IMG/VR virus record: IMGVR_UViG_3300030329_003305
Span: 1-37,990 of that record
Strand: one strand, 5' to 3'
Length of the DNA stretch: 37,990 bases
Source of the DNA: a virus
The notes beneath the pieces are model-generated. The model was not told the DNA's origin, searched no databases, and saw nothing but the letters and a program-made list of their open reading frames with translations. How positions within the stretch are numbered: position 1 is the first letter of the stretch; the number at the start of each line of letters is the position of its first letter. Shown here piece after piece: positions 14,631-37,249 of the stretch. The position numbers and the translations under genes are program-made.

Positions 14631-15569
14631 ATGAGAGATGACAGAATACAATCTCTAAGAAAAAAATTTCATTCTTCTAACCATAAATCCTTAAACCAGA
14701 CTGCATACAAAGAAGAAGGTTCAACGGAAAAGGTTAAGAAGAAGAATGGGGATTTGTTCTTTTTTTCTAAGTCTACCTTGGAAAACAAAATCGACCTTAA
14801 AGATCAATTTCTAGGTCTGCCTATATTTCTTATTCTTTCAGGTCCAAGCTTAGTCAAAAATAAAAAGGTGTCTCAATCCCTAGAGGACATAAAGTCTTTG
14901 GGTGCTTTTTCTTTGGGGGTTAATAATAGTTGGTCTATCTTCAAGCCCACATTTTGGACGTGTGCTGATGGGCCCAACAAGTTCTTGTCTTCGGGATGGC
15001 TAGATCCTCGGATAATCAAGTTTGTCCCTAAGGGCAAAGAGGACCAGAAGATAAGAAAAAAAGAGAACGGGAAGTTTATAGACACCTCCATCAGAACCAG
15101 GGACTGCCCTAACGTCTTGTTCTATCCTCGAAATACCGACTTTGATAGCGAGTTCTTTTTGACAGAAGGATCTGTGAATTGGGGTCAGACTTCAAAAAGA
15201 CCTTGTTCTGTTGGATACAGAGGATCAAGATCGGTGATGTTATCTGCCATAAGGCTTTGCTACCACCTGGGGTTCAGGTCGATATACCTCTTGGGCTGTG
15301 ACTTCCAGATGAAAAGAGGGCAGCAAAACTATGCTTTCAAGCAAGAAAGATCTAAGAGTTCTGTTAATGGAAATAACAGGACTTACGATATACTGAACGA
15401 CAGGTTTGACGCACTAAAGCCCATCTTCGAGAAGAAAGCTTTAAGTGTCTATAACTGCAATCCTGAGAGCGGATTGAAATCTTTTCCTTACGCAGATCCT
15501 CTACAGGGGATTGAACAATTTAAGAAGTTCATCCCTCCAAAAGAAGATACTTACGGGTGGTACGATTAG
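14631..15569 (+). CDS. DUF115-like enzyme, possible glycosyltransferase-type moron
   Basis: A 312-residue enzyme-like protein. The segment IFLILSGPSL (GPSL at residues 71-74) matches the nucleotide-binding start of the DUF115 / MptE-like group. Residues 201-225 (SVMLSAIRLCYHLGFRSIYLLGCDF) match the second conserved block of that group, a helix followed by a strand ending in G-C-D. Related phage and bacterial proteins are linked to glycan or sugar-nucleotide chemistry, and to sialyltransferase-like folds. It is visibly AT-richer and more Lys/Phe/Ser-rich than its neighbours, lacks a good ribosome site, and splits the tail genes, which suggests later insertion. Substrate unknown. Confidence 0.65.
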   Translation: MRDDRIQSLRKKFHSSNHKSLNQTAYKEEGSTEKVKKKNGDLFFFSKSTLENKIDLKDQFLGLPIFLILSGPSLVKNKKVSQSLEDIKSLGAFSLGVNNSWSIFKPTFWTCADGPNKFLSSGWLDPRIIKFVPKGKEDQKIRKKENGKFIDTSIRTRDCPNVLFYPRNTDFDSEFFLTEGSVNWGQTSKRPCSVGYRGSRSVMLSAIRLCYHLGFRSIYLLGCDFQMKRGQQNYAFKQERSKSSVNGNNRTYDILNDRFDALKPIFEKKALSVYNCNPESGLKSFPYADPLQGIEQFKKFIPPKEDTYGWYD

Positions 15570-27784: not shown

Positions 27785-28162
27785 ATGGCAGGCGAAACTG
27801 CACTTCCAATCCAAGAAACCCCCGACTTCTTCCAAGACGTTACTTGGTCGGGATCAATCGCAGAAGATATTGACGAAACGTATTTCTACTACTGTGAACG
27901 TGACACCATTGTAGATTCAGTAGTTGCTATTACTGACACTGCTGATGACAACATGACTATTGATGTGAAGAAGGGTGCTGGTGGAACATCCATCTTCAGC
28001 ACTATCATTACTACTGCTGGTGCCGATGCAGTCTACGCAGGCGTATTGTCTACAACTGAGAATCTTGTACCTGCGGGTACTGTATTGCACCTGAACTTTG
28101 CAAACGTAGATACCGCCACCGGCGTTCTGGTTCAGGCTCGCATCCGCACCCGAGTACGCTGA
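27785..28162 (+). CDS. Small beta-rich virion (decoration/cement-like) protein
   Basis: A 125-residue protein, almost all beta-strand by pattern, with alternating hydrophobic residues and Thr/Asp/Gly turns (DSVVAITDTADDNMTIDVKKGAGGTSIFSTIITTAGADAVYAGVL...AGTVLHLNFANVDTATGVLVQARIR). The VPAGTVLHLNF and RIRTRVR strands are typical of small phage sandwich proteins that sit on capsids or tail surfaces. It has a GGAG site in the end of the preceding gene and a strong terminator directly behind it, the same arrangement as the capsid gene, which suggests high-copy synthesis. No Cys motif or signal peptide stands out. A decoration or fibre-knob role is inference. Confidence 0.65.
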   Translation: MAGETALPIQETPDFFQDVTWSGSIAEDIDETYFYYCERDTIVDSVVAITDTADDNMTIDVKKGAGGTSIFSTIITTAGADAVYAGVLSTTENLVPAGTVLHLNFANVDTATGVLVQARIRTRVR

Positions 28163-28164
28163 TA

Positions 28165-28224
28165 GAGAAACCCTTTCTCGTTTGTTGAGGCGGGGGCGGT
28201 TGGTGCAAGCTAACCGCCCCTTTT
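28165..28224 (+). terminator. Tandem hairpins with strong intrinsic terminator
   Basis: A small hairpin GAGAAA-CCC-TTTCTC begins three bases after the stop. It is followed by a nine-pair stem GGGGCGGTT (28193-28201) with AACCGCCCC (28212-28220) and a TTTT run. The next gene's ATG is at 28229, so the terminator ends where the next start begins. This should cut downstream expression sharply. Confidence 0.93.
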
Positions 28225-28228
28225 CACC

Positions 28229-29428
28229 ATGGCTACCCAGCAAAATCTTTTAGGCGCGTTTTCTCTTCTCGAAGGAATCGAGGATAAGCTTTATCCCATC
28301 AAGCCAAATCCCAATCCTCAAACCGGAAGGATTCTTAGAGAAATAGCAAGCAACTTGTCTGAGACAAAGGCTGCAGGGGGTTATGTAACTTCTCCAGGGG
28401 AAGTTGTAGATGAGTTCTTAAAGAACTGGATACCGGGGCACTCCAAAGGTCCCTCTCTTAGAGGAGCAGATGTTGTTGCTCCTCCTTATGCTCTTCATCA
28501 TCTGTCGGGAAATCCGATGGAAACTCACCATTTCTTGCAGTTTAAGTTCCCGTTCAAAGGTAAGTACAAAGGTATGACCTTTGAAGAAATGCTTAATACT
28601 CCCGGGGGACGAAGAGAACTAGACAAAATCTCAAGTGTATACAGCAAAAAGAAAGGTAAGAGTGCCCGAAAAGAGCTTGTTTGGGGCAAGAAGGGAGCGA
28701 GAAAAAAACTTAAGTTACATCCTGCTTTGGTTAAGGGAGCCAAAGAAGCCGTGAAATGGGATGACGCAAGGCGTAAATTCCTGGGTCTTAGTAATCTAGG
28801 CATGACCGAGGGTAAGGGTAAACTTATCCCTAGGACTCTTGCAGGTTTTCGGAGTGCTGAAGATCTTAAAGAGATAGCAGAGTTGTCAAGGATGTTTGGG
28901 GTTCCCATCAATGATGAGTACAACACTCTAAATATCGCTGGCAGACAAAGACAGCCGATTAGTACGTTATTGGATGTTCTTACTCCGAAAACTAAACTTT
29001 ACCACATGACCAGAAGTAAAAATCTCTCTTCAATCCTTGAACAAGGGCTAATACCTTACAAGGCACTTAGAGACGCGGGTGCATTTTTATGGCAAGACAA
29101 AGCAATCCCTCTTAAAAGAGCAGGTAAAGACTTTGGTCCTTTCTTTAGTTTGAACAAGCCTGTTATGGACAAGCTTCCCGGGGGTGGAACAGGAAGATGG
29201 GACCACTACAAAATCTTTGAAACTACTGCTGAAGAATTAAAGAAGGCTGGAGTTTTGCCAAGAGAGGAAATTTCACGACTCTTATCTGGAACAGGTATTT
29301 CCGGAGAAATTCAGGCGGGCGGAAAGGTCCCTGCTGGGATCCTTAGGAACATGAAATTAAGGGGGGGACAGTTGATGCCTCTTATGTTGGTTGGTTTGCT
29401 GGCTTCCTTGTTTATAGGTGAAGATTGA
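28229..29428 (+). CDS. Putative virion-borne ADP-ribosyltransferase-fold protein with C-terminal membrane helix
   Basis: A 399-residue protein. Residues 257-271 (LYHMTRSKNLSSILEQGL) match the first block of the ADP-ribosyltransferase superfamily (DarT / RNA 2'-phosphotransferase-like Y-H-x-T followed by an N..SIL..GL helix). FFSLN at 305-309 fits the second block. GEIQAGGKVPAGILRNMKL (Glu360) fits the third, where the acidic residue lies before a G-x-IP-x-x-I run. The N-terminal 250 residues are basic and helical; the last 18 residues (GQLMPLMLVGLLASLFIGED) form a hydrophobic helix. The start has no ribosome site and abuts the terminator. A role like injected T4 Alt is possible. The fold call is by motif only. 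Confidence 0.55.
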   Translation: MATQQNLLGAFSLLEGIEDKLYPIKPNPNPQTGRILREIASNLSETKAAGGYVTSPGEVVDEFLKNWIPGHSKGPSLRGADVVAPPYALHHLSGNPMETHHFLQFKFPFKGKYKGMTFEEMLNTPGGRRELDKISSVYSKKKGKSARKELVWGKKGARKKLKLHPALVKGAKEAVKWDDARRKFLGLSNLGMTEGKGKLIPRTLAGFRSAEDLKEIAELSRMFGVPINDEYNTLNIAGRQRQPISTLLDVLTPKTKLYHMTRSKNLSSILEQGLIPYKALRDAGAFLWQDKAIPLKRAGKDFGPFFSLNKPVMDKLPGGGTGRWDHYKIFETTAEELKKAGVLPREEISRLLSGTGISGEIQAGGKVPAGILRNMKLRGGQLMPLMLVGLLASLFIGED

Positions 29429-32400
29429 TGGCTGTTGAATTCCAACCAACTCAGTTTCAGCCAGTAACCTTTTACGATCTTCCTACCCTTGCGTTCTCGC
29501 AGGTAATGGAAGGAGAGTTTACTGTTCCGGGATTCTTTTCCGGTATATCTGAAGCTACAGGTATTGGTAACGCAACACTTACTCCCACTGAACGGGAGAG
29601 CATAGTTGACCAGCAAAAACAGAAGCATGGTTTAACTGGTATTTCTGGTGCTCTTGCAGATATCGCAACTAACCCTTGGGTCTGGTTTGCGTTCTTGACT
29701 ACCCCGGGTGCAGTGAGTGCGCTAAGGAACAGCACAAAAGGAATCTTCAAGGTTAGTCCTGAGTGGCATGTCTTCAATAGAGAAAATGCTCCTTGGCTCA
29801 TAGGCTGGAGATTCCTTACGGGCAATCAGATATTTAGAAACACCCATCTCCATCCTGCTATGACTGCTGTAGCTAAGGAGAGAAACAAGCAGATCCAGTA
29901 CATGGAAGAAGTACTGCAGCCTGCGAGGGAAGAAGTACTAGCTAACCTGAACTCTATGGGCATCCGGGTAAAGACCCTGGATCCTACAAAAGCTCCGGTT
30001 CAACACCGCGATCTCCTCAAAGACATCGACATTGCAATACACGGAAGACTAGCGGGGAAAGACAGAGCAACAAAAGAAGTTGTATCGAAAATTGAACAAG
30101 AGATGGGGGAGTTTACTTTCACTCTCATTAAAGATGATGGAAGTAAATACGAAAAGCTTGTAAAGGCAATGGATCTTGATGATGCCAAGAGAGCTTTGGT
30201 TCAAACAGGGGACATGAGATCCTTAAATAATTTCGACAAAGCTGTAATGAACAAGAAACCAACTGCAAAGTTGGTCGAAGAGGTTGTAAATGTAGATCCT
30301 ATTATGTCGCGTGTTTCCGTTGATGAGACAATCAATAAGTACGGTCTTCAACCGATGATTGATTCGATGAGAAACTACTACGACGAGATGGGGAAAAGGC
30401 TTTTCCTTAATGAGGATCTTCTTACTCGCAATGGTATTACGAGTCCTGAAGCTTTACGAAGAGTTATGGAAACTCCGGAATCTCTTAAGCAATATGTAGA
30501 CAAGGATAAGGTAGTAAACCTATGGAAGTCGGCAGAGCTTAGAAGTGTAAGTGCTAATGCTGAAGGAGAGATGAGTAAGAGAGCGACGGAGGCTGCCGGT
30601 GATTTGTTTTCTGTTTCTCAAAACAGATCAGACAATCCTGGTCTTAGAACAGTTCGTGAAATCATGAACTTTGTAGATGCAGAAAGCAGATTCGGTAAAG
30701 AGATTAACTTTGACACTCTTGTACGGTCTGAAGATTTGGGGGATATGATTTCCCGTGTTGTATCTAACAACATGGCTGGAGGTAAGTATCACCCAAAACT
30801 TTATGACAGTGTAGACGGAACGGGAAGGTCTCTGCTTCGTAAAGCTGTGAGGTCTTCAGGTAAGAAGACGGTGGATCAAGCGATTGCTGCAGGTCACGTT
30901 CTACCTAAGAATCCTAGGAACTCCTTTGGTGTTTACTCAGCGGAAGACATTGAGGCATTAAAGAGATTATCTAATAATGATCCCCGCTTGATAAAACGGT
31001 TAGAAAAGATTGAGGCCCGTCTAAAAGCTGTATCGAGTGATCCTACTAAAGAAGGTATGGTTACTGTTCAGAGATTGGGGGCACACGACGCCGTAAAGTT
31101 TTACGGTATGAATAGTGCAAACACCTACGCTACTTTTATACATGGTGCTAGGAAAGTAAACGGTAAAAATGTATACGACCCAGAAGTTTGGAGTGCTGTT
31201 TCTGGTGCGCAAAAAGGTAGTCAGAGATACTATGATTTTGATGACGTATCTAAGGGGGCAGGGGAAGAGCTTGTATACAATTCATCTGTAACAAAAGCTA
31301 GGAACAGAGATGTTCTTTCTGAGTTACCAGATGAAATGCAGCCCTACAACAATAAGTATGGGTACTTCACACTTGGTGATGCGATCAATCAGGTGCATGG
31401 GAGTGTAAGAGAACCAGGGCTAAAGGGGATTATTAAAGATGTTCTGGTTCCTCAGATGTTGGGGCGTCAGACTATTCAGCACTCGACCGAGAACCTTCTC
31501 GCTCACAGTACAGCCATGGCTGCAAAGAAAACTGCGGGTTTGATGAGGAACATGGGAGTCGATAAGACTGACTTGGGTGCCGGGGTTGTAAAAAAGTTGG
31601 AGGAGTTCCATGACTCCCCTATGAGTTTCATAGGTTCTGGTACGTCAGGGGGACTTGCTCGATACCTCTACATTACTCACCTGGGTTTCAATCCTGCGTC
31701 TGTTATTTTGAACCTTACTCAGCCGTGGTTGCTTGGTGCTACTCAAATGGGAGTGGGACCAATAATCAAAGGTTACGGTCAGGCATTCAAGGAGATGGGT
31801 AACTATCTGATTGAGAGATTGCAGTCGGGTAAGGTTTTTGCAACAGATGCTGAAAAAGCTCTGGCGATAAAGAACAACTTTAAGCATGCAGAAGAGATGG
31901 GAATTTCTCCTGATACCTTCCGGAATCTGGATGAAGTCATTCATTCAGTAGATAGAAGTAAATCGGGATTGTGGGATCGACTCTCTGGTTTGAGTATGAA
32001 GGTCTTTGAGAAGGCTGAGTGGATGAACCGTTCGGTTGTGTCTCATGCAGCTGACGATCTATTCAAAACCACAGGAGCAGCTAGTTCTCCATTTAGGAGA
32101 CAGGCTGTCAGGGAGATGATTCAAGAAACTCAGTTCGGTGCTGACTTCTTGAATACTCCTATGACCTTCATGGGATATGGGTCCTTGGGTCAGTGGTTTG
32201 GAAGACCTGAGATGAGACAGTTCCTTACCTTCCCTCTTAGATCGGTAACAGGTATTGCTGTTACTTCTAAGCAGATCAATGAGGGACGAAGAAAGGTCAT
32301 GGGATTTGATGTTCCATTCGGTAGAACGGTGGACTTCATAAGGGGCTTGGGCGTATCGGCTGGCTTGTACTACGCAGGTAGGAACATGTTTGAAGCCGAC

Positions 32401-33294
32401 ATGTCAAAAGCTTTGTTCTACAACTCGATGACGGACATCATCGGGAACGACCCCTTCAACGATTACGAGAATGCAACTGACTTCATACCTGTACCTCCTG
32501 TCATAGACATGGGCTACGACGCCATTAGGGGTATTACCTCGGGGGATACCGATCTACTGGCTAATGGTATTTGGAGAATGGTTCCTGGTGGTATTGCTCT
32601 TTCAAGAGCATTCGCAACTGCACCCCAATACTTGGGACTGCCTTCCGATAATCCTCTGGCTCGCATGGTTGGCGACTTCCAGAAGAGATACGCATCGTAT
32701 GATAACCCTTCTCCTACAGGTGAGATTCCTATCTTCAAAGGGGATGGTACGTTTGTTGAGTTCAGGAATCCTATGCAGCTTGTTCTTCAGGGACTTGGCT
32801 TGGACCTCAACGCATCAAAGGTTAGATCAGAAGAGACCGGGTATTATGTCAAGCAGAGAGAGATGATCTTGCAGAGCAGGCAAGAGATTATCTCTAAGCT
32901 ATTGGCAAATGATATTCCTGGTGCAATGAAAGCTAAGGCAAGGTATGAAAAGAGAATGGGTATACCGTTCTCCCTGACTAAGGAACAGCTTCGTCAGTTC
33001 ATGAGAAATAGACAGGTACCTAGAAACGAGAGGATCCTGGATCGAATACCGCCAGAAGCTCGTCACCTGTACTCTAAGTTTGCAGCTGCGGATATGGTCA
33101 ACAAGGATGTTGACCCCTCGGTATTTGTGGACGCTCCTACGTCATCTGCCCGATCAAAGGTTATGGAGAGACCCCAGACATTCGACGTACAAGCAGAGTC
33201 GATTGCTCAGATGAGAGAGCTAATCAGGGAAACAGAAGAAAGAAAGAGGCTTTCGGAAATGGGGTTCACGAACTTTACCTCTTTCGGTGAATAA
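29428..33294 (+). CDS. Large internal (ejection-type) virion protein, 1288 aa
   Basis: I prefer the ATG at 29428, overlapping the upstream stop (TGATG), over the TTG three bases earlier. The protein is mostly helical. Residues near 750-790 (HLGFNPASVILNLTQPWLLGATQMGVGP) and later MNRSVVSHAADDLFKTTGAASSPFRRQAVREMIQETQFGADF, then FGRPEMRQFLTFPLRSVTG, resemble the long internal or polyvalent virion proteins of marine podoviruses. The C-terminus again has a charged helical tail. No catalytic site is identified. The length and the place before the lysis genes agree with a T7 gp16-like position, which is ejected with the genome. Several hydrophobic stretches could cross the host membrane. Confidence 0.7.
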   Translation: MAVEFQPTQFQPVTFYDLPTLAFSQVMEGEFTVPGFFSGISEATGIGNATLTPTERESIVDQQKQKHGLTGISGALADIATNPWVWFAFLTTPGAVSALRNSTKGIFKVSPEWHVFNRENAPWLIGWRFLTGNQIFRNTHLHPAMTAVAKERNKQIQYMEEVLQPAREEVLANLNSMGIRVKTLDPTKAPVQHRDLLKDIDIAIHGRLAGKDRATKEVVSKIEQEMGEFTFTLIKDDGSKYEKLVKAMDLDDAKRALVQTGDMRSLNNFDKAVMNKKPTAKLVEEVVNVDPIMSRVSVDETINKYGLQPMIDSMRNYYDEMGKRLFLNEDLLTRNGITSPEALRRVMETPESLKQYVDKDKVVNLWKSAELRSVSANAEGEMSKRATEAAGDLFSVSQNRSDNPGLRTVREIMNFVDAESRFGKEINFDTLVRSEDLGDMISRVVSNNMAGGKYHPKLYDSVDGTGRSLLRKAVRSSGKKTVDQAIAAGHVLPKNPRNSFGVYSAEDIEALKRLSNNDPRLIKRLEKIEARLKAVSSDPTKEGMVTVQRLGAHDAVKFYGMNSANTYATFIHGARKVNGKNVYDPEVWSAVSGAQKGSQRYYDFDDVSKGAGEELVYNSSVTKARNRDVLSELPDEMQPYNNKYGYFTLGDAINQVHGSVREPGLKGIIKDVLVPQMLGRQTIQHSTENLLAHSTAMAAKKTAGLMRNMGVDKTDLGAGVVKKLEEFHDSPMSFIGSGTSGGLARYLYITHLGFNPASVILNLTQPWLLGATQMGVGPIIKGYGQAFKEMGNYLIERLQSGKVFATDAEKALAIKNNFKHAEEMGISPDTFRNLDEVIHSVDRSKSGLWDRLSGLSMKVFEKAEWMNRSVVSHAADDLFKTTGAASSPFRRQAVREMIQETQFGADFLNTPMTFMGYGSLGQWFGRPEMRQFLTFPLRSVTGIAVTSKQINEGRRKVMGFDVPFGRTVDFIRGLGVSAGLYYAGRNMFEADMSKALFYNSMTDIIGNDPFNDYENATDFIPVPPVIDMGYDAIRGITSGDTDLLANGIWRMVPGGIALSRAFATAPQYLGLPSDNPLARMVGDFQKRYASYDNPSPTGEIPIFKGDGTFVEFRNPMQLVLQGLGLDLNASKVRSEETGYYVKQREMILQSRQEIISKLLANDIPGAMKAKARYEKRMGIPFSLTKEQLRQFMRNRQVPRNERILDRIPPEARHLYSKFAAADMVNKDVDPSVFVDAPTSSARSKVMERPQTFDVQAESIAQMRELIRETEERKRLSEMGFTNFTSFGE

Positions 33295-35729: not shown

Positions 35730-35969
35730 TTAGTCGTTTATATCGTCCCAATTTTCGTATGGTTGGCCCATTGTCCTGAGGACCGTTACACGGGCCGAGA
35801 AGCCCACCTCATCCCACGACGGAGCAGCGGTACCCCAGCGCTCCTGTAAATGTCGGGCGGCTCTAGCGGCCTCCAGCTCATTGCTGAAGGGGCCGTATGC
35901 GGACGGATCTAGGGACGGGTGGGACATCACTACGATCCAGTTGTTGCTGTTCTCTGATTGCCGGGACAT
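35730..35969 (-). CDS. Small hypothetical protein (79 aa)
   Basis: Not recognised. Composition is rich in Trp, Ser, Pro and Arg (NWIVVMSHPSLDPSAYGPFSNELEAARAARHLQERWG...ARVTVLRTMGQPYENWDD). Short strands and one helix look like a small alpha/beta domain. It is GC-richer than the pyruvyltransferase-like gene upstream, which reads 92 bases into it in another frame. Its stop is directly beside the right 84-nt element. It is the last gene of the leftward unit 37249-35730. Confidence 0.6.
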   Translation of the reverse strand: MSRQSENSNNWIVVMSHPSLDPSAYGPFSNELEAARAARHLQERWGTAAPSWDEVGFSARVTVLRTMGQPYENWDDIND

Positions 35970-36771
35970 TTCTGCTCACTTTATTGCGATCTTCCCACCC
36001 CACACACTCTTTTGCCATCCTCAACAACCCTTCCTTGATTTTACTGTTATCGACATTTGGCGGATTATAGTGGATCATTTGATTTATTTTTCGAGGCTCT
36101 TTGCAGAGACAATGACCCAAGCCGTAGTCCTGTAACAATCCAGATATCTTGTGTGTATTAGATTCTACTGCAACAAAAGGTTTATTCATCATCATAGCAA
36201 ACACAACCCCGTGGTAACGACCAGTTACCACAAGGGAAGCTTTTGCAAATATGTCTAAGACCTTTCTATTTTTACACAAACACATCTTTAAAAACCTAGA
36301 GGGCTTGAGACAAGATTTACTTGCAGCTTCTAGTTCTCTTGATCGTTTTTTTATCACGCTATCAACATACAGAATATAGTCTTCTGAAAGTTTGTTTTTG
36401 ATTTCATATCCGAAACAAGCATCATGTACGTATGGGTAGATACCCCTGGAACTTTTGCTTTCTCTTGCAAACACACAGTCGAATATTGAAAGGTCGTATG
36501 AAATTCGATCTATCACTGAGTTTACAAGACAAACCCTTTTCCCAAACCTTTTAGCTTTTTTGGCTGTTTCGTAGATCTTACGAGATGCAGACCGGTTTCC
36601 ATGAAATGTCCCTTCTCCATTGATTATGATCAAATCATGTGAGAGTAGGTCTTTGCAATTATTTCGAGTAGTTACTGTTCCGTACTCGGAGAACATTTTC
36701 TTTAAGACTTTCATAGTCAACCGACTACCGTAATGGTACTGGCTGCAGTCATTAGTAATTAGAATCCTCAC
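35878..36771 (-). CDS. Polysaccharide pyruvyltransferase-like protein, probably an inserted gene
   Basis: A 297-residue protein of the polysaccharide pyruvyl transferase / CsaB-like family, which adds a pyruvyl ketal to sugars of cell-surface glycans. GEGTFHG (residues 52-58) and TGRYHG...NKPFVAVESNTHKISGLLQDYG (183-217) are the two conserved blocks; FARES near 101-105 also fits. I place the start at GTG 36771, one base after the upstream stop (TAACGTG), which removes an unrelated N-terminal extension. The last 30 residues (NVPAIREQQQLDRSDVPPVPRSVRIRPLQQ) are the downstream gene read in another frame. It is visibly AT-richer than both neighbours. It looks like a cassette that has lost its own stop. 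Confidence 0.8.
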   Translation of the reverse strand: MRILITNDCSQYHYGSRLTMKVLKKMFSEYGTVTTRNNCKDLLSHDLIIINGEGTFHGNRSASRKIYETAKKAKRFGKRVCLVNSVIDRISYDLSIFDCVFARESKSSRGIYPYVHDACFGYEIKNKLSEDYILYVDSVIKKRSRELEAASKSCLKPSRFLKMCLCKNRKVLDIFAKASLVVTGRYHGVVFAMMMNKPFVAVESNTHKISGLLQDYGLGHCLCKEPRKINQMIHYNPPNVDNSKIKEGLLRMAKECVGWEDRNKVSRNVPAIREQQQLDRSDVPPVPRSVRIRPLQQ

Positions 36772-36772
36772 G

Positions 36773-37249
36773 TTAGAGGCTGACCCATAGCTGCCAGTAC
36801 TTGGAGATGCGAAGGGAGGCAGGTACCCTCTTAGGTAGAAGTAGATCGTGCGGGATGACCGCATCGTTCATGAACTCTTGGCTCATGTCTGCACTGATCA
36901 TACTTAACTTGCCTGAGGGGGTCCACAAGAAACCCATAGGCACACTGCCTACGAACTCCAGGAGGAACGGTTCCTCTTCGCCTAGACGTATATCATCTTC
37001 GACATCATTCCCCGCTTGCTTTCCTGTCGGATCAAATGCGAAGACTAACCACGGCTCGGGTCCCATGCTGCCGTTGATCTGGTACAGGTACATGTGTGCC
37101 GCCGACCGGCTGGAGGCATCCGGCGGCTGCATTACTTCACCAAGACCACGGCTTACCGTTACTAAACGGGGACCGCCTATCTCTACTTCAAGCATGTGTC
37201 GGGGTAGTCGGACTAAAGCGTTTACTGGGATTTCTTTGATGTCTGTCAC
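36773..37249 (-). CDS. Hypothetical protein (158 aa)
   Basis: Not recognised. A mainly beta protein with hydrophobic strands (ALVRLPRHMLEVEIGGPRLVTVSRG; HMYLYQINGSMGPEPWLVFAFDP; EPFLLEFVGSVPMGFLWTPSGKLSMISADM) and a helical end. There are no membrane segments or catalytic motif. It is GC-rich, with an in-gene inverted repeat GCCGCCG/CGGCGGC. It is the first gene of the leftward unit; the candidate operator region at 37416-37447 and the tRNA-like element lie upstream. It ends directly before the pyruvyltransferase start. Confidence 0.65.
   Translation of the reverse strand: MTDIKEIPVNALVRLPRHMLEVEIGGPRLVTVSRGLGEVMQPPDASSRSAAHMYLYQINGSMGPEPWLVFAFDPTGKQAGNDVEDDIRLGEEEPFLLEFVGSVPMGFLWTPSGKLSMISADMSQEFMNDAVIPHDLLLPKRVPASLRISKYWQLWVSL

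Follow-up and report, generated by a model that had tools for sequence, protein, structure and literature searches.

The window analysed here spans the whole of a 37,990-base virus record. Its late region holds an open reading frame, termed X, between two genes (G and H) that are conserved in related loci, and the features of this region are as follows.

1-37,990: virus record, covered in full by the window.
27785-28162 (+): gene G, 125 amino acids, conserved upstream neighbour of X.
28163-28228 (+): spacer abutting the ATG of X, with two predicted hairpins, the second of which is G+C-rich and followed by TTTT.
28229-29428 (+): gene X, 399 amino acids, ATG start, open reading frame confirmed.
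28229-28945 (+): N-terminal part of X, about 239 residues, no recognised domain.
28976-29362 (+): predicted ADP-ribosyltransferase (ART)-like domain of X, residues about 250-378, delimited by profile matches and a structural model.
29000-29053 (+): motif 1 of X, YHMTRSKNLSSILEQGLI, residues 258-275, strand 1 with His259 and then a helix.
29117-29119 (+): Arg297 of X, which a post hoc alignment places on the arginine conserved upstream of PFHF in DarT rows; putative functional residue.
29132-29155 (+): FGPFFSLN of X, residues 302-309, candidate strand 2 from a block scan.
29303-29353 (+): GEIQAGGKVPAGILRNM of X, residues 359-375, with Glu360 seven residues before V-P.
29369-29419 (+): hydrophobic segment of X, QLMPLMLVGLLASLFIG, residues 381-397, candidate membrane helix.
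29428-33294 (+): gene H, about 1288 amino acids, coupled to X by TGATG and conserved in relatives.

A first-pass annotation, made from the DNA letters, had described X as a probable virion-borne protein of the ART fold with a basic helical N-terminus and a C-terminal membrane helix. The open reading frame and the motifs cited, namely YHMT at residue 258 (His259), FFSL at 305, GEIQ at 359 (Glu360) and VPAG at 367 (V367-P368), lie where they had been placed and in that order. The hydrophobic stretch behind the proposed membrane helix is also present (mean Kyte-Doolittle value of 1.95), and it ends two residues short of the C-terminus. The basic part exists as well, but in the middle of the protein, the net charge being +13 over residues 130-240 and +1 over residues 1-130. 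The GC content of X (0.441) is similar to that of the neighbouring genes. Residues 111-123 (28559-28597) form a GKYKGMTFEEML-type stretch with a weak match to ExoX-like_C (E 0.25).

The terminase of the record (PHROG 38, E 1.8e-45) yielded 79 related loci when used as a query; it had no match in phage records at 1e-10, and one match in a Myxococcales MAG. The relatives share, with divergence and a variable length of E, the gene order A2316-B-C-D125-E-F178-G125-H1289, and this synteny bears out, as far as gene order can tell, the earlier placement of X among virion genes. H weakly matches the NCBIfam 'tail-700' PLxRFG protein (E 4.7e-8, under the curated cut-off) and also LPD22; its start is probably the ATG at 29428, in the TGATG overlap, and not the TTG at 29425. 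A gene upstream of X weakly resembles the adaptor of phage SU10 (E 3.6e-5). SU10 is a short-tailed phage, and the X-bearing phage probably has a short tail too.

X is inserted cleanly between G and H of this conserved late operon. None of the 21 related loci with a visible region upstream of H (L087-L104, L002, L003 and L004; L006, which lacks the upstream side of H, was left out) carries a homologue of X at a phmmer E ≤ 1. In the closest relative, L087 (82% for the terminase, 55% for H), a near-identical spacer after G and the ATGGCTAC start open directly into H, whereas in the window they open into X; the spacer continues into ATGGCTACT, the start of H, in L087 and into ATGGCTACC, the start of X, in the window. 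Once X is removed, its flanks match those of L087 at 106 of 130 columns. Because the spacer and start contexts match and X is absent from L087, we regard X as an insertion that captured the leader of H. The ATG that ends this spacer context follows a T run with no obvious Shine-Dalgarno sequence, and a similar layout precedes H in L087 and L088. The extra genes located before H in L095, L100 and L103 resemble, by eye, the gene G type. In L089 (7390-9129, reversed orientation), the variable region between D and F holds an accessory gene encoding 579 amino acids; like X, this protein has a hydrophobic C-terminal segment (mean Kyte-Doolittle value of 1.87, nine residues from the end), and it showed no match to the ART motif.

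Six weak profile matches from four libraries converge on residues 244-284 of X, and five of them name ART families: DUF7002 (E 0.0034), PARP (E 0.18) and DarT (E 0.26) in Pfam, KptA in PHROG (E 0.037) and NCBIfam (E 0.014), and DarT in PADLOC (E 0.0019). All the scores are under the curated cut-offs wherever these are given, with 11.4 bits against 22.5 bits for DarT (PF14487) and 15.2 bits against 239 bits for KptA (NF002014). The other window proteins scanned matched no ART-named family, X had no Pfam match to the Phage_Mu_F domain, and ART-PolyVal (PF18760) matched none of 27 records, window included, at E ≤ 1. The loose motif [YFLW]H.[TGS].{3,14}I...G[LIF] occurs in X and in none of 281 other predicted proteins, drawn from the late region of the window and from 22 related loci. 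Motif 1, with the His259-bearing strand 1 and the following helix of the H class, is good evidence, as read from sequence, for membership of the ART superfamily.

No homologue of X was recovered by tblastn in phages at E 0.01, in the scans of viral and genome contigs, or at E ≤ 1 in 50 related viral records. At E 10, tblastn gave four weak matches in phages when the ART part was the query, and nine weak matches, none a homologue, in plasmids. The best tblastn match in phages, out of 50,697 records, was Thermus phage phiMa_38 (E 0.8), which adjoins phiMa_39, annotated as ADP-ribose 1-phosphate phosphatase-related, i.e. macrodomain-like. Among the nine plasmid matches (E 5), three carry a DarT annotation, and the one of these that was opened adjoins a macrodomain gene. 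A match in L043 (E 0.83) was dropped as an opposite-strand reading frame, helicase/primase-like by eye, and three unrelated phmmer matches among PDB sequences (best E 0.14) were judged to be due to chance.

A DNA pattern of motif 1, biased toward X because it was written from X, found 95 stretches in viral contigs, 80 of which were examined. Among the matches listed, the pattern lies in an open frame at 80 of 80 loci, and PF[HY]F, as in DarT, is present at 20 of these 80; the remaining 60 divide into 45 loci with a downstream tail motif of the (I/V/F)P type and 15 without it. Forty such loci, re-trimmed at the (I/V)P tail, furnished an alignment, A3, of 29 phage rows with the ART motif, a selection that favours the ART reading. 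Pfam matched the 30 A3 members (window included) to DUF7002 (seven), KptA (four), PARP (three), DarT (three) and Tox-ART-HYD1 (one), with additional single matches to six other families. An earlier alignment, A2 (40 of 42 trimmed loci), was left unfolded, its tail being badly placed.

Beyond motif 1, the sequence support for the ART domain is weak, with 1-8% of the block-test controls scoring equally well. A profile built from 47 pattern matches scores X at 30 bits, over motif 1 only and in a circular manner; with motif 1 masked, X was unreported by this profile at E ≤ 10, and a semi-global alignment of its tail gave a z of 0.14, with 129 of 300 shuffles equally good. For three DarT blocks placed in order on X, equally good scores came from 12 of 1000 shuffled sequences and from 47 of 1158 windows of real proteins; for three A3 blocks the numbers were 47 of 1000 and 97 of 1158, respectively, both sets of blocks having been picked after X had been inspected. 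The best A3 placements follow the expected order (302 FGPFFSLN, 325 DHYKIFET and 359 GEIQAGGKVPAGILRNM), and Glu360 aligns with a glutamate in several A3 rows, with the weak statistics just given. The spacing from Glu360 to V-P resembles the E...(I/V)P arrangement of several ART rows and of DarT.

A reading in which X is no ART at all, but a structural or ejection protein of the phage whose motif 1 resembles ARTs by chance or very locally, has these tail tests in its favour, as well as the fact that only about 25 residues of X are confidently recognised and that AlphaFold2 fails on X when it is given no heterologous rows. We hold it to be quite improbable, since independent ART profiles converge on one spot of X and on no other window protein scanned, and since the order of the three later blocks is the one expected.

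Residues 240-399 of X, submitted to AlphaFold2 with no relatives, gave a failed model (pLDDT 36.4), whereas residues 244-382 with the 29 phage A3 rows gave an ART fold (pLDDT 74.1, pTM 0.70) with strands at 256-262, 293-297, 327-333, 360-363 and elsewhere. As the A3 rows are themselves ART-like, the model shows that the fold is possible for X, not that it is obligatory. Strand 2 is ambiguous, lying at 293-297 in the model and at 302-309 by the block scan. In the PDB, Foldseek placed TkoKptA first (E 7e-4), followed by KptA/Tpt1, pertussis toxin and DarT chains, and VIA-align ranked KptA best (Z 8.8 over 89 residues, rmsd 3.0), with DarT at Z 8.5 over 122 residues (rmsd 3.3). In BFVD, the model matched uncharacterised phage proteins and a putative RNA 2'-phosphotransferase; a further, weak match (E 0.061) was to a Flavobacterium phage vB_FspP_elemoC_14-1A structural protein. 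The ART fold that had been proposed is therefore backed by the motif-1 profiles and by the model with 29 rows, but not by the single-sequence model, and the later motifs lend it little; likewise, the expected resemblance to both DarT and KptA appeared with borrowed ART-like rows, and X by itself gave no usable fold. We nevertheless consider it very probable that the C-terminal region of X is an ART-fold domain.

Instead of an effector, X could be an ART-fold enzyme of the KptA/Tpt1 type that processes RNA or nucleotides, as KptA chains are the top fold matches of the model and KptA profiles match motif 1. Such a role appears very improbable: the NF002014 score lies far below the family cut-off, and X carries Glu360 at a position where KptA is not known to have a catalytic glutamate. 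Nor could the functional basic residues of KptA be placed in X.

Enzymes of this kind are already known as phage weapons. According to PMC5512222, ARTs are the most frequent of the protein-modifying domains in phage polyvalent proteins, where they have an H-Y-D site and that of Roseovarius Plymouth podovirus 1 is the prototype; T4 Alt, with its R-S-E active site, is the model of an injected ART. T4 Alt is also treated in PMC9503650, which puts the share of podoviruses and siphoviruses with ARTs at 3% and reports a gene context suggestive of head packaging for about 44% of the recovered phage ARTs. Podovirus ejection proteins are thought to form trans-envelope conduits, as stated in PMC8402733.

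Among the systems closest to X are the ARTs of phage polyvalent proteins and of N4-like virion RNA polymerases (e.g. Roseovarius Plymouth podovirus 1, CBX87992.1), which have a strand-1 histidine, lie among virion genes and are predicted to be injected (PMC5512222). These are fused to virion RNA polymerase or other domains and use H-Y-D, whereas X is a stand-alone protein of 399 residues with a possible glutamate and a hydrophobic C-terminus. T4 Alt, packaged, injected and acting on the host at once, serves as the model for the proposed mode of action of X, but X has His259 at the strand-1 position instead of the arginine of the R-S-E triad described in that source. DarT (PF14487; Thermus sp. 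2.9 DarT, 7omw) shares with X motif 1, possibly Arg297 and Glu360, and, in the model with borrowed rows, structural similarity over 122 residues; X differs from it by a shorter domain, by its location in a late virion operon and by the lack of a macro-domain partner, PF01661 having no match at E ≤ 1 in the 37,990-base record, which may be incomplete (9 of 14 controls gave a match). A MuF-ART fusion, the head-gene protein of locus L168 (Phage_Mu_F E 2.2e-10, ART motif at 609 of 725), has an ART domain that is 29% identical to X over 119 aligned columns, X itself having no MuF domain.

The first-pass statement that a membrane-anchored effector of this sort in a short-tailed phage is not well described is partly wrong, since the literature already has an ART in a podoviral virion and others packaged in heads (PMC5512222 and PMC9503650). 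A narrow literature search found no publication on a membrane-anchored injected ART. Since virion-carried ARTs, podoviral ones included, have been published, X is a stand-alone orphan example of a kind already known. What is new here is X as an insertion with a captured H leader; X may add this clear insertion and a possible membrane segment to an expected type of enzyme.

We propose that X is an accessory ART-fold enzyme that was inserted in the late operon and is packaged, injected and used to modify the host, a joint explanation to which we give slightly better than an even chance. As for its parts, X is likely to be an active ART, and its packaging and delivery are favoured with somewhat less assurance. 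X would have been acquired as an accessory gene through the clean insertion between G and H. As it took the spacer and start context of H, it is presumably expressed late, alongside the putative ejection proteins. It would be packaged inside the head, where its basic middle part may hold it on the packaged DNA, and would leave with the ejection proteins at infection, the C-terminal hydrophobic segment possibly aiding its entry into or through the inner membrane. The C-terminal domain would use NAD+, with His259 and Glu360 in the cleft, and, in the manner of T4 Alt, X would transfer ADP-ribose to a macromolecule of the host at an early stage of infection.

The virion status of the cassette proteins, X included, is deduced from the position in the late operon, which by itself is no proof of packaging. 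X might instead be an active ART that stays unpackaged: made in the infected cell, it would act either at a late stage or against other phages, resembling a DarT that lacks DarG. The weak DarT-like matches and the post hoc alignment of Arg297 and Glu360 with conserved DarT positions are consistent with this alternative, which we deem unlikely: X sits inside a conserved late cassette and is coupled to H, and the record, possibly incomplete, holds no macro domain and hence no complete DarTG pair. The most specific form of the packaged-enzyme proposal is rather unlikely as well, namely that X is a membrane-inserting stand-alone ART of a short-tailed phage, an exchangeable cassette cargo that travels with the ejection proteins, exits the head along with the DNA-conduit proteins, remains fixed in the inner membrane through its C-terminal segment and ADP-ribosylates host targets there.

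If the packaged-enzyme proposal is right, an uncultured and probably short-tailed lineage has an ejection-protein cassette into which enzyme cargo can be cleanly inserted downstream of a leader already present, and X is a compact orphan ART and a candidate early host-modifying effector. Other cargo in this lineage might then be sought at the G-H junction and in the slot that follows the capsid-like gene.

As to this second slot, a search of 75 records (27 plus 48) with the A3 profile matched the window, itself a row of A3, and two further records, G041 (E 5.4e-6) and G066 (E 3.4e-5). The corresponding reading frames, G041:21334-22044 (-) (L205; 236 amino acids) and L056:14132-15055 (G066; 307 amino acids), are alike by eye and carry a Y/H-x-T...IL..G motif. 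That of G066 directly follows a homologue of a 524-amino-acid gene, taken as the capsid gene; that of G041 lies between homologues of the 524- and 180-amino-acid genes, with small reading frames around it. They may represent a second ART-like cargo family in the lineage, and we treat them as candidates because A3 covers motif 1 only and Pfam returned nothing for the G041 frame.

Two other genes of the window deserve mention. The 312-amino-acid gene at 14631-15569, between the adaptor-like region and the 2316-amino-acid gene, weakly matches an alpha-2,3-sialyltransferase PHROG (E 2.1e-6) and MptE-like proteins (E 1.3e-4). Near the end of the record, 35878-36864 (-) encodes a polysaccharide pyruvyl transferase domain (E 5e-12).
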